DNA of 64,000 nucleotides, from contig JANQQE010000011.1 of assembly GCA_028285105.1 (NCBI GenBank), positions 819,856 to 883,855 on the forward strand, read 5' to 3'. The notes under the pieces are model-generated. The model was not told where the DNA came from. It saw nothing but the letters and a program-made list of their open reading frames with translations, and made no database searches. Both the position numbers and the translations under genes were made by a program. Positions within the stretch are counted from its first letter, which is position 1. Each line of letters opens with the position of its first letter. Origin of the DNA: Alphaproteobacteria bacterium (GTDB taxonomy: Bacteria; Planctomycetota; Phycisphaerae; UBA1845). This document shows, in pieces, positions 43,657 through 57,782 of the stretch.

Positions 43657-43684
43657 TTGCATGCGCACCATTGTGTTGTATACT
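43657..43684 (+). promoter_or_regulatory. Predicted promoter of the leader/tRNA locus
   Basis: A near-consensus pair TTGCAT - 16 bp - TATACT predicts a start at about 43691, just before a ribosome site and the leader peptide. The ~150 bp between 43536 and 43690 show no gene. Confidence 0.5.
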
Positions 43685-43704
43685 TCCAGCAGAGGTACAC
43701 ATTC

Positions 43705-43764
43705 ATGAATCGCAACGCGCTATATTATTATTTACCGCTGCTGCCCGGAGGTGGGTTCGCCTAG
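43705..43764 (+). CDS. Putative leader peptide rich in Leu and Tyr codons
   Basis: A 19-residue frame, MNRNALYYYLPLLPGGGFA, with AGAGG 9 nt upstream of the ATG. Codons run CTA, TAT x3, TTA, CCG, CTG, CTG. It ends 38 bp before a strong terminator hairpin, the layout of a transcription-attenuation leader. The next features downstream are tRNAs with anticodons TAG and TAA that read CTA and TTA, and a GTA-bearing tRNA-like element. That the leader senses those tRNAs is inference. I could not find a convincing antiterminator pairing. Confidence 0.45.
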   Translation: MNRNALYYYLPLLPGGGFA

Positions 43765-43801
43765 ATTGCGCGCGATGATTCTTTAGTTGCAGGTGCGATG
43801 T

Positions 43802-43833
43802 CTCGGTGGTTCTCACAACGACCGAGGCTTTTT
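43802..43833 (+). terminator. Rho-independent terminator after the leader peptide
   Basis: CTCGGT (43802-43807) pairs with ACCGAG (43821-43826), followed by GCTTTTTTT. A second ACCGAG followed by six T lies at 43887-43898, offering an alternative partner for the same CTCGGT. Confidence 0.75.
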
Positions 43834-43982
43834 TTGTGTCCGCACGTTTCCAGGTGAACACACGCTGCCCAGGTCGTTCGACACACACCGAGTTTTTTAA
43901 TTCGCGTTAACGGTTGATTGGAAACAAGTCCAATTCACTGCACGGAGAATGTACATCTCGAATTTGGGTTTTACTTAAACGC

Positions 43983-44056
43983 GACCAGGTAGCCCAACTG
44001 GCAGAGGCACGGCGCTTAGAACGTCGGCAGTGTGGGTTCGACTCCCACCCTGGTCA
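43983..44056 (+). tRNA. Class-I-shaped tRNA with leucine anticodon TAG
   Basis: 74 nt. Acceptor GACCAGG/CCTGGTC, discriminator A, 3-bp D stem, anticodon stem CGGCG/CGTCG with loop CTTAGAA (anticodon TAG), a 5-nt variable loop (GCAGT), T arm GTGGG TTCGACT CCCAC. Bacterial tRNA-Leu normally has a long variable arm; this one does not. The amino acid it carries is therefore uncertain, though A73 is a leucine identity base. Confidence 0.8.
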
Positions 44057-44086
44057 ATTCGAATGCGCAGAAGCTGCGCGCAAACA

Positions 44087-44160
44087 TGCCGGGTAGCCCA
44101 ATTGGCAGAGGCACTCGATTTAAGCTCGAGCAGTTGAGGGTTCGACTCCCTCCCCGGCGA
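44087..44160 (+). tRNA. Class-I-shaped tRNA with leucine anticodon TAA
   Basis: 74 nt. Acceptor TGCCGGG/CCCGGCG, A73, anticodon stem CTCGA/TCGAG with loop TTTAAGC (anticodon TAA), 5-nt variable loop CAGTT, T arm GAGGG TTCGACT CCCTC. The same anticodon is on a normal long-arm tRNA-Leu at 57699-57782, so decoding is duplicated. Confidence 0.8.
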
Positions 44161-44180
44161 ACAAGACATGAGTGAGTGGC

Positions 44181-44254
44181 GGCTGAGTAGCCCAATCGGC
44201 AGAGGCGCTCGATTCAAAATCGAGTCGTTGGGGGTTCGACTCCCCCCTCAGCCA
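44181..44254 (+). tRNA. Class-I-shaped tRNA with leucine anticodon CAA
   Basis: 74 nt. Acceptor GGCTGAG/CTCAGCC, A73, anticodon stem CTCGA/TCGAG with loop TTCAAAA (anticodon CAA, reads TTG), 5-nt variable loop TCGTT, T arm GGGGG TTCGACT CCCCC. It shares the same D-arm sequence as its neighbours. Confidence 0.8.
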
Positions 44255-44279
44255 TTGCAAATGAATGGAGATCGTTGCC

Positions 44280-44354
44280 GCGGTGGTAGCCCAATTGGCA
44301 GGAGGCACGAGAATGAGGTTCTCGACAGTGTGGGTTCGAATCCCTCCCACCGCA
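44280..44354 (+). tRNA. Class-I-shaped tRNA with leucine anticodon GAG
   Basis: 75 nt. Acceptor GCGGTGG/CCACCGC, A73, anticodon stem CGAGA/TCTCG with loop ATGAGGT (anticodon GAG, reads CTC), 5-nt variable loop, T stem GTGGG/CCCTC with one T-T mismatch. The D loop is one base longer than in the other three. Confidence 0.72.
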
Positions 44355-44374: not shown

Positions 44375-44460
44375 GGGAACTGTTCCTCACGGCGGATTGT
44401 AATCCCGTTGTCGAAAAACAGTGAGGTGGCCGACAAGAGGTTCAATTCCTCCAGTTCCCA
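44375..44460 (+). tRNA. Degenerate tRNA-like element with long variable region
   Basis: 86 nt. The 7-bp acceptor GGGAACT/AGTTCCC is perfect, A73 present, T arm GAGG TTCAATT CCTC intact. The core is non-canonical. GTA appears in a GGATTGTAATCC hairpin; a TTGTCG/CGACAA stem and a CCTCAC/GTGAGG complementarity also form. It could be a decayed or rearranged tRNA-Tyr-like gene. Isoacceptor identity is not assigned. Confidence 0.35.
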
Positions 44461-44498: not shown

Positions 44499-44783
44499 TC
44501 AAGTTTGAACGATTTCATAAAGCCCCTGCCCAACGTACCTTAGACGTTCCAGCCGCACCAACTCATCCCACACGGCTTTCGGGAACTGACGCGGCGGAAC
44601 AATGGAAACAATGCCCGAACTCTTACCGCCAGACATCGCACTGCGCCCAAGCGTAGACTCCGCATCAAGTCGAGAAAGCTTCAACCGCTTACGAAAAGCC
44701 TTCATCGCCCGTCGCAATTCCTCAGCAGGTATCGCATCAGCCGGCGTCCCTCCATCATCCAATTGCGGTGATTCAGATGTCAC
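44499..44783 (-). CDS. Small conserved-looking hypothetical protein
   Basis: A 94-residue protein. A polar start (TSESPQLDDGGTPADAIP) precedes a helical basic segment (EELRRAMKAFRKRLKLSRLD) and a folded end (SGIVSIVPPRQFPKAVWDEL...RYVGQGLYEIV). The GTG start at 44783 has AAGGAG 7-8 nt upstream, much better than any upstream ATG in frame. Not recognised; the helix plus Trp-containing end suggests a small nucleic-acid-binding fold, which is a guess. Confidence 0.6.
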   Translation of the reverse strand: MTSESPQLDDGGTPADAIPAEELRRAMKAFRKRLKLSRLDAESTLGRSAMSGGKSSGIVSIVPPRQFPKAVWDELVRLERLRYVGQGLYEIVQT

Positions 44784-44961
44784 TGCATGACTCCTTTTGA
44801 TTTGCGTCACGATACCAGACTTCAACAGACCGATCCTACCAGATCGCCGGATTTGTAGTTGCAAAAAATTCTCTGGAACCCCACACTCGCCCGGTGGCTT
44901 CAAGTGCCTCCGACGGGATACAGTCGGATAGAATTCGAACGAGGTGCCGCCAGGAACCTTC

Positions 44962-45741
44962 ATGGAACGCTCTCAAGAAATCTTCAATGCCATCAAGAAC
45001 GGAGACTTGGCCACTTTGCAGGACGCCTTGGGTGACACCCATCCAGATGAGCCCAGAGACTCGGATGGCTCGACGCCGTTGCTTGAGGCGTGTCGTTTCA
45101 AGAGCGAAAAAGTAGTTCGCTTCCTGCTCTCAAATGGGGCAGACCCCAATCTTGTTGTGGACGGATGCACACCACTCGCGGAGGCCGTTATGCTTTCCGA
45201 AAACTTCTTGATCGTAAAGGAGTTGCTTGCTCACGGCGCCAACGCCAATCTTAACGAAGCCGAATTCGGAACCACGCTGATCACGGCCGCCGCCAATGGA
45301 TTCACCCAAATTCTCCATGAACTCCTCCAGGGCGGCGCAGACACAAGCATCAAGAACAGCGAAGGAGAATGCGCGTTGAGCTTTGCCGCGTGCTACGGAC
45401 ACCTTGACTGCGTCAAAGCGCTATTGACCGCTGGCGCAGACCCGAACAGCCGCGATCTCGACGAAGGCACGCCCCTGCTCTACGCGGTCATGCAACAAGA
45501 CCAGCACGTTGAACTTGTGAACGAATTGCTTTCAGCTGGCGCCGACGTGAATGCACGCGACAAAAGCGGAATGACACCCTTGGGCGTTGCTGCTGACTAT
45601 GCCCATGATGACATCGCGATCCTACTGCTAAGGAATGGTGCAAGACCCAAATGCTGCCGGCCTGACGGTCGTGATTTGAAACAGGTTGCCGCCGAGAAGG
45701 GGCTTACGCAATTGGTATCTTACCTGTCTGACAAAGGCTAG
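44962..45741 (+). CDS. Ankyrin-repeat protein
   Basis: A 259-residue cytoplasmic protein of about seven ankyrin repeats: DGSTPLLEACRFKSEKVVRF, LIVKELLAHGANANLNEAEF, GHLDCVKALLTAGADPNSRD, VELVNELLSAGADVNARDKS. No signal peptide. ATG 44962 has AGGAA 7 nt upstream. Ankyrin repeats mediate protein contacts; the partner is unknown. It is divergent from the 44499 gene. Confidence 0.85.
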   Translation: MERSQEIFNAIKNGDLATLQDALGDTHPDEPRDSDGSTPLLEACRFKSEKVVRFLLSNGADPNLVVDGCTPLAEAVMLSENFLIVKELLAHGANANLNEAEFGTTLITAAANGFTQILHELLQGGADTSIKNSEGECALSFAACYGHLDCVKALLTAGADPNSRDLDEGTPLLYAVMQQDQHVELVNELLSAGADVNARDKSGMTPLGVAADYAHDDIAILLLRNGARPKCCRPDGRDLKQVAAEKGLTQLVSYLSDKG

Positions 45742-57698: not shown

Positions 57699-57782
57699 TG
57701 GGCAAGGCGGGAGTCGAACCCGCACGAGGTTTACCCTCGGGGGATTTTAAATCCCCTGCGTCTGCCATTCCGCCACTCGCCC
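57699..57782 (-). tRNA. tRNA-Leu(TAA), canonical class II
   Basis: 84 nt: acceptor GGGCGAG/CTTGCCC, A73, anticodon stem GGGGA/TCCCC with loop TTTAAAA (TAA), long variable arm CGAGGGTAAACCTCG, T arm GCGGG TTCGACT CCCGC. A normal bacterial leucine tRNA, which makes the class-I array at 44 kb unusual. Confidence 0.95.

Follow-up and report, generated by a model that had tools for sequence, protein, structure and literature searches.

Short-arm tRNA-Leu genes and a D-armless tRNA-Tyr-like gene behind a predicted attenuator in a planctomycete

Why should a bacterium carry a second set of tRNA-Leu genes, built differently from the canonical one? The question is raised by a 64,000-nucleotide stretch (the window) of the 4.8-Mb planctomycete genome G000 (36 contigs). 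On its forward strand lie four tandem cloverleaves of 74-75 nt with leucine anticodons: UAG (43983-44056), UAA (44087-44160), CAA (44181-44254), and GAG (44280-44354). The original prediction, based on the sequence alone, suggested that these tRNAs are charged with leucine by an unusual rule, carry another amino acid, or have a non-translational tRNA-like role. Its description of the four tRNAs was right but incomplete, since a fifth gene (44375-44460) and an upstream leader and terminator had been missed.

ARAGORN and Rfam RF00005 found all four genes at the same coordinates (50.7-60.3 bits in Rfam, against a gathering threshold of 29), and in every one the fold shows A73 and a variable loop of 5 nt. 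Among 24 chromosomal relatives, the computed class I cloverleaf was paired in 99.4% of cells, and covariation was seen in 15 of its 20 pairs, a level reached by none of 500 shuffles. A long-arm interpretation was ruled out, because the cloverleaf with the 5-nt loop covaries. The long variable arm of class II is absent, and the array tRNAs are a class I variant of tRNA-Leu, not canonical bacterial tRNA-Leu. An ordinary counterpart, the class II tRNA-Leu(UAA) that had been noted at 57699-57782 (reverse strand), was also found by both programs. As the host has a complete class II set (CAA, CAG, TAG, GAG, and TAA), the short-arm array is redundant, and it had correctly been called a second, differently built leucine set.

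The array is present in G002 and G004, from the same genus, with compensatory stem changes among the members of the three genomes. The GAG gene has the same sequence in both, the CAA gene is missing from both, and a UAG anticodon is switched to CAG in G004. By pattern search, no array was seen in G001 and G003, for which the stretches at hand lacked the flanking genes, and an array-specific pattern matched none of the genome contigs. The neighbors examined within the window encode YchF, TPR, ankyrin-repeat, and uncharacterized proteins; YchF and a transglutaminase are common to the G000 and G002 loci. A prophage location was considered and rejected, as no phage-like gene was seen among these neighbors and the neighborhood is conserved in G002. 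Adjoining the array is a gene for a conserved 154-aa protein (44499-44963; 93% over 86 aa in G002), which had no NCBIfam match.

In bacteria, leucine identity depends on A73, A14, the A15-U48 pair, G18G19, and A20a, together with tertiary contacts and U8:A14, and not on the long arm; tRNA-Leu variants lacking this arm remain active, and bacterial LeuRS does not need it (PMC9976931). Across the 24 chromosomal short tRNAs, A73, A14, G18G19, A20a, and U48 do not vary, and 23 have A15. The host has one LeuRS gene, and no second LeuRS-like gene was found in its genome. Judged by their leucine anticodons and LeuRS determinants, the four short tRNAs very probably carry ordinary leucine. Leucine charging, as originally suggested, is therefore retained, and the unusual rule is dropped, since the determinants are kept and the ordinary rule fits.

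The array does not stand alone: phages, Actinobacteria, and further Planctomycetota also have short tRNA-Leu. A pattern built from the D and T arms of the four tRNAs, with the anticodon unconstrained, matched at least 120 viral stretches. Among the matches listed, 128 of the 129 tRNAs bearing this D-arm motif have leucine anticodons; the remaining one was called 'Stop' and, with the loop sequence CTTTAAACC, is probably a misread UAA. BLAST relatives, mostly annotated as tRNA-Leu, lie in named phages of Rhodococcus, Mycobacterium, Streptomyces, Prochlorococcus, Salmonella, and Escherichia. Chromosomal short tRNA-Leu(UAA) genes were found in Phycisphaerae, Nocardia, Rhodococcus, Corynebacterium, Kocuria, Mycolicibacterium, and Rubrobacter, with many actinobacterial cases (L313-L428). 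Short tRNA-Leu is already known, at least in passing; a short variable loop was remarked in the tRNA-Leu(TAG) of a mycobacterial tRNA cluster (PMC6582537).

In f4, a sister family of planctomycetes, UUA is apparently read by no tRNA other than the short tRNA-Leu(UAA), with the full tRNA list coming from one genome. A class II UAA tRNA was found by pattern in 0 of 27 f4 genomes and in 71 of 87 genomes from the other families of the order (Fisher 2e-15); the sensitivity of this pattern is imperfect (206 of 392 genomes overall), so that single absences are weak and the family-wide result, together with G038, is strong. The full list of G038 (99% complete) includes class II CAA, GAG, TAG, and CAG, and UAA in the short form only. 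The tRNAs examined in G453 agree with this, and most other carriers of short UAA across the phylum also lack class II UAA by pattern. From the genomes with a short tRNA-Leu as sole UUA reader, we infer charging with leucine; the UUA codons in the f4 LeuRS genes are too few to tell whether UUA means leucine. If this is right, f4 indicates that a bacterial LeuRS can work with a class I tRNA-Leu even where, throughout whole lineages, no other tRNA reads UUA, which is relevant to tRNA identity and to orthogonal tRNA design. G038 also carries an extra short tRNA-Leu(CAG) beside its class II CAG (L264, 278-352), for which no leader or terminator was found.

These data bear on the proposed recoding of leucine codons by another amino acid, for which the unusual architecture is the only point. 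We rejected this explanation and consider it very improbable: every leucine determinant is kept, the class II set reads all leucine codons in the same genome, a second LeuRS-like gene was not found, all but one of the viral tRNAs among the matches listed have leucine anticodons, and this tRNA type is the sole UUA reader found in f4. The last two observations also disfavor a non-translational role.

The fifth gene (44375-44460, forward strand) encodes a D-armless RNA resembling tRNA-Tyr(GUA). It has acceptor, anticodon, long variable, and T arms, the GUA anticodon (44399-44401) in a 7-nt loop, and A73, and a 10-nt linker replaces the D arm. Because the D arm and thus the canonical cloverleaf are absent, we call it tRNA-Tyr-like. 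Neither ARAGORN nor Rfam at the gathering threshold detected it; the best Rfam match was tRNA-Sec, at 19.8 bits against a gathering threshold of 47. A covariance model (R1) gave it 107 bits, the model having been built on this very gene. Nearly identical copies occur in G002 and G004, and a homologue follows the array of G057, from another family; further R1 homologues were found in G086, G081, G130 (partial), and viral contigs. A broader viral pattern (at least 120 matches) gave no convincing addition after a structure filter, the matches being mostly due to chance.

The linker pairs with the loop of the variable arm (CCTCAC, 44385-44390, with GTGAGG, 44421-44426), forming a predicted pseudoknot. 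In the homologues, the helix reads CCTCAC/GTGAGG, CCCCAC/GTGGGG, CCCCCC/GGGGGG, CCCGCG/CGCGGG, GTCACA/TGTGAC, CCGTAC/GTACGG, and CCGGTC/GATCGG. Thus, 41 of 42 pairs are Watson-Crick over seven independent homologues, which only the true arrangement reached among 5040 permutations; this test, which we take as decisive, used a fixed register and excluded the viral copy L558 (5 of 6 pairs), and a free-register length test was uninformative. Compensatory changes are seen in both the acceptor stem and the pseudoknot. The pairing of a D linker with a variable-arm loop adds a tRNA architecture that ARAGORN and Rfam miss.

The element could instead be a regulatory tRNA mimic or a processing signal that is not aminoacylated, as the lost D arm, C33 in place of T33 in G081, and the degenerate-looking copy in G130 might suggest. 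We regard this as somewhat unlikely, given that the GUA anticodon in its 7-nt loop, A73, the long variable arm, and the T arm are conserved among the homologues, some of which encode the 3' CCA, and that tyrosine codons occur in the leaders of arrays containing the gene.

These leaders belong to a control region upstream of the array, also on the forward strand. Its putative elements are a sigma70-like promoter read from the sequence (TTGCAT-16-TATACT, 43657-43684; TTGCGT-16-TATACT in G004 and TTGCTC-16-TAAAGT in G002), a Shine-Dalgarno-like AGAGGT (43691-43696; GAGAGGT in G004 and AAGGAT in G002), and an ORF for the leader peptide MNRNALYYYLPLLPGGGFA (43705-43764, stop codon included) with the codons CTA TAT TAT TAT TTA CCG CTG CTG. 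An intrinsic terminator (GTCTCGGTGGTT..AACGACCGAGGC followed by T7; 43800-43836; -17.5 kcal/mol) starts 36 nt past the leader stop codon. A stricter consensus scan reported no promoter or terminator in this region. A leader ORF rich in the relevant codons precedes an intrinsic terminator here, as in a ribosome-mediated attenuator.

The reading frame of the leader is kept in G002 (MNRNALHFDLQNYYLLNLPGGGTA) and G004 (MNRNALYYYLLLLPGGGFA), the differences being synonymous substitutions and a 15-nt insertion that leaves the frame intact, and leaders rich in YY or LL precede homologous arrays in other families. The leader and terminator were found before the orthologous arrays of G000, G002, and G004 (family f1), G057 (f4; leader MKKFAVYYFLLTLLRGGTV), and G494 and G496 (f8), with the terminator at the homologous place and a compensatory terminator change between G494 and G496. 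They also precede related arrays in G081, G195, and G106 (f37), G156 and G138 (f24), and the viral contigs L162 and L140; in all, we count nine such loci, spread over five families of planctomycetes, plus two contigs from viruses. In a leader-terminator scan of 131 viral arrays, 2 clear cases were found, compared with 0 in random segments. Where short tRNA-Leu(UAA) is a singleton gene, in f4 as in Actinobacteria, no leader or terminator was found before it. Five tRNA-Leu genes in G124 follow a Leu-rich leader, but no clear terminator was seen there.

The composition of the leaders varies with the arrays. The G494 and G496 leaders are Leu-rich and their arrays Leu-only. The other leaders are MMIACSYTLLVSLLAGGCGGMG in G081 (array Leu, Tyr-like, Leu, Cys, Ser, Ser), MYMELPHSSLLSHSRLFGGLSVERA in G156 (Leu, Ser), MKHLLSQLSSLCYLRTYSSGVNIG in G138 (Leu, Cys, Leu, Ser), VNTGLSSLLSSYLSSYRNTGDGGAL with a GTG start in L162 (Leu, Tyr-like, Ser), and MKALFSLSSLYLSSLLEEAS in L140 (Phe, Tyr, Leu x3, Ser x2), in which 14 of 19 residues are Leu, Ser, Phe, or Tyr. 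Over ten independent loci, the non-Leu composition of the leaders tracks the tRNA isotypes encoded behind them (permutation P 0.0003), with array contents that include tRNAs read by eye. The P-values for Leu itself are biased, because several leaders were picked by Leu/Tyr richness or by eye. The match is imperfect: the G195 and G106 leaders contain Ser and Cys, and the array found was one tRNA-Leu. In the attenuated array of G081 (L559, 6041-6285), the tRNA-Ser(GCT), tRNA-Ser(CGA), and tRNA-Cys are divergent, with unusual D arms.

The effect of a stalled ribosome was modeled by an equilibrium fold in which the RNA under a ribosome at the Tyr/Leu codons was hidden. The predicted terminator probability fell from 0.98 to 0.34 in G000 (stall at Y8; matched by 4 of 200 shuffles), from 0.66 to 0.005 in G002 (18 of 200), from 0.98 to 0.001 in G004 (0 of 200), and from 0.94 to 0.009 in G057 (3 of 200). 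It also dropped in G195 and L140 (0 of 100 shuffles each). The model gave no switch at G494, G496, G081, G156, G106, G138, and viral L162, so only some of the loci support an antiterminator.

Attenuation, taken by itself, is the best reading of the locus and seems to us likely; with a trigger included, the best explanation, an operon of backup tRNAs controlled by ribosome-mediated attenuation of transcription, is still probable. RNA polymerase would start at about 43690, and a ribosome would translate the leader. With ample leucyl- and tyrosyl-tRNA, translation would run to the stop codon and transcription would end at the terminator. A shortage of canonical tRNA-Leu or tRNA-Tyr would instead stall the ribosome at the Leu or Tyr codons; the leader RNA would then refold, the terminator would fail, and RNA polymerase would go on to transcribe all five tRNA genes, four for short-arm tRNA-Leu and one for the D-armless tRNA-Tyr. 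The single ordinary LeuRS would charge the four leucine tRNAs through their retained determinants, and the fifth tRNA would receive tyrosine. We infer attenuation in vivo, and also its trigger, which may be damage inflicted on the canonical tRNAs, whether by a toxin or nuclease that targets tRNA or by a phage function. Damage is a likely trigger because the backup tRNAs lack canonical features, namely the long arm of tRNA-Leu and the D arm of tRNA-Tyr.

Classical attenuators sense amino-acid supply, and the same attenuator might respond to ordinary starvation for leucine or tyrosine, with backup tRNAs that are preferentially charged or read rare codons; indeed, no Leu codons are used less often in the window genes than CUA and UUA (19 and 15 of 318). 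However, an extra tRNA makes no extra amino acid, whereas making tRNA answers a loss of tRNA, and starvation does not explain the structural divergence of the tRNAs; moreover, the long-arm isotypes Leu, Ser, and Tyr recur in the arrays. We therefore think starvation an unlikely trigger. Distinctly unlikely, in our judgment, is the view that the array came from phage and is expressed constitutively to add tRNAs for codon supply, with a terminator that serves some transcript from upstream and a leader ORF that arose by chance. Short tRNA-Leu is common in phage arrays and the singleton UAA genes have no leader or terminator, but the leader frame, the Tyr/Leu run, and the terminator are conserved with the array across families, leader composition matches array composition, and the terminator change between G494 and G496 is compensatory. 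As to tRNA damage, toxins that recognize the long variable arm exist, as MenT3 needs it in tRNA-Ser (PMC11541572), and phage tRNAs have been proposed to evade anticodon nucleases and replace cut host tRNAs (PMC10264068).

The proposed role is like that of the latter tRNAs, in replacing inactivated ones, but the array also occurs in bacterial chromosomes and its transcription is predicted to respond to shortage. As in the ribosome-mediated attenuators of the trp, his, leu, and pheST leaders, a leader rich in the relevant codons is followed by an intrinsic terminator, with alternative folds predicted on stalling; unlike in these, the downstream genes are tRNAs reading the same codons. We know of no attenuator with downstream tRNAs that read the leader's own codons. 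D-arm loss, with compensating tertiary contacts or pseudoknots, is seen in D-armless mitochondrial tRNA-Ser and plant-virus tRNA-like structures, whereas the Tyr-like gene is bacterial or phage-borne, with a Tyr anticodon and, at the tip of a long variable arm, a loop that pairs with the D linker. A limited literature search found no description of either the D-armless tRNA-Tyr architecture or an attenuator that governs tRNA genes through a leader in the codons those tRNAs read, and to our knowledge neither has been described.

The short tRNA-Leu class and D-arm motif are shared with phage tRNA arrays (T5-like phages and actinobacteriophages), and the short variable loop with the mycobacterial cluster; in contrast to these, the array described here is chromosomal, in a neighborhood common with G002, behind a predicted attenuator. 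Metazoan mitochondrial tRNA-Leu likewise has a class I shape recognized via A73 and A14 and is charged without a long arm (PMC9976931), but the array tRNAs are bacterial, have a full cloverleaf, and exist alongside class II tRNA-Leu.

If the proposal is true, attenuation is joined to tRNA biology, with tRNA genes switched on by a shortage of the tRNAs that they back up, and the redundant, oddly shaped tRNAs of some bacteria and phages are explained. More tentatively, and with slightly less than even confidence, we suggest a self-sensing emergency tRNA system in which leaders written in the codons of the controlled tRNAs detect their loss and switch on disguised replacements (short-arm Leu, D-armless pseudoknotted Tyr, and divergent Ser and Cys), countering tRNA-targeting toxins or defenses in bacteria and phages.

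Two other tRNA clusters were observed. The host genome has a second tRNA island (G000:C12:95289-103186; L036), possibly a mobile element, with extra class II Leu(GAG) and Leu(TAG), Gln, Pro, Arg(GCG), His, and Phe genes. In G123, an array in a phage-like element includes a CTA-anticodon (amber-reading) tRNA (L217, 674-749) that is close in sequence to the tRNA-Gly(TCC) of the same array, suggesting possible stop-codon recoding in this element.
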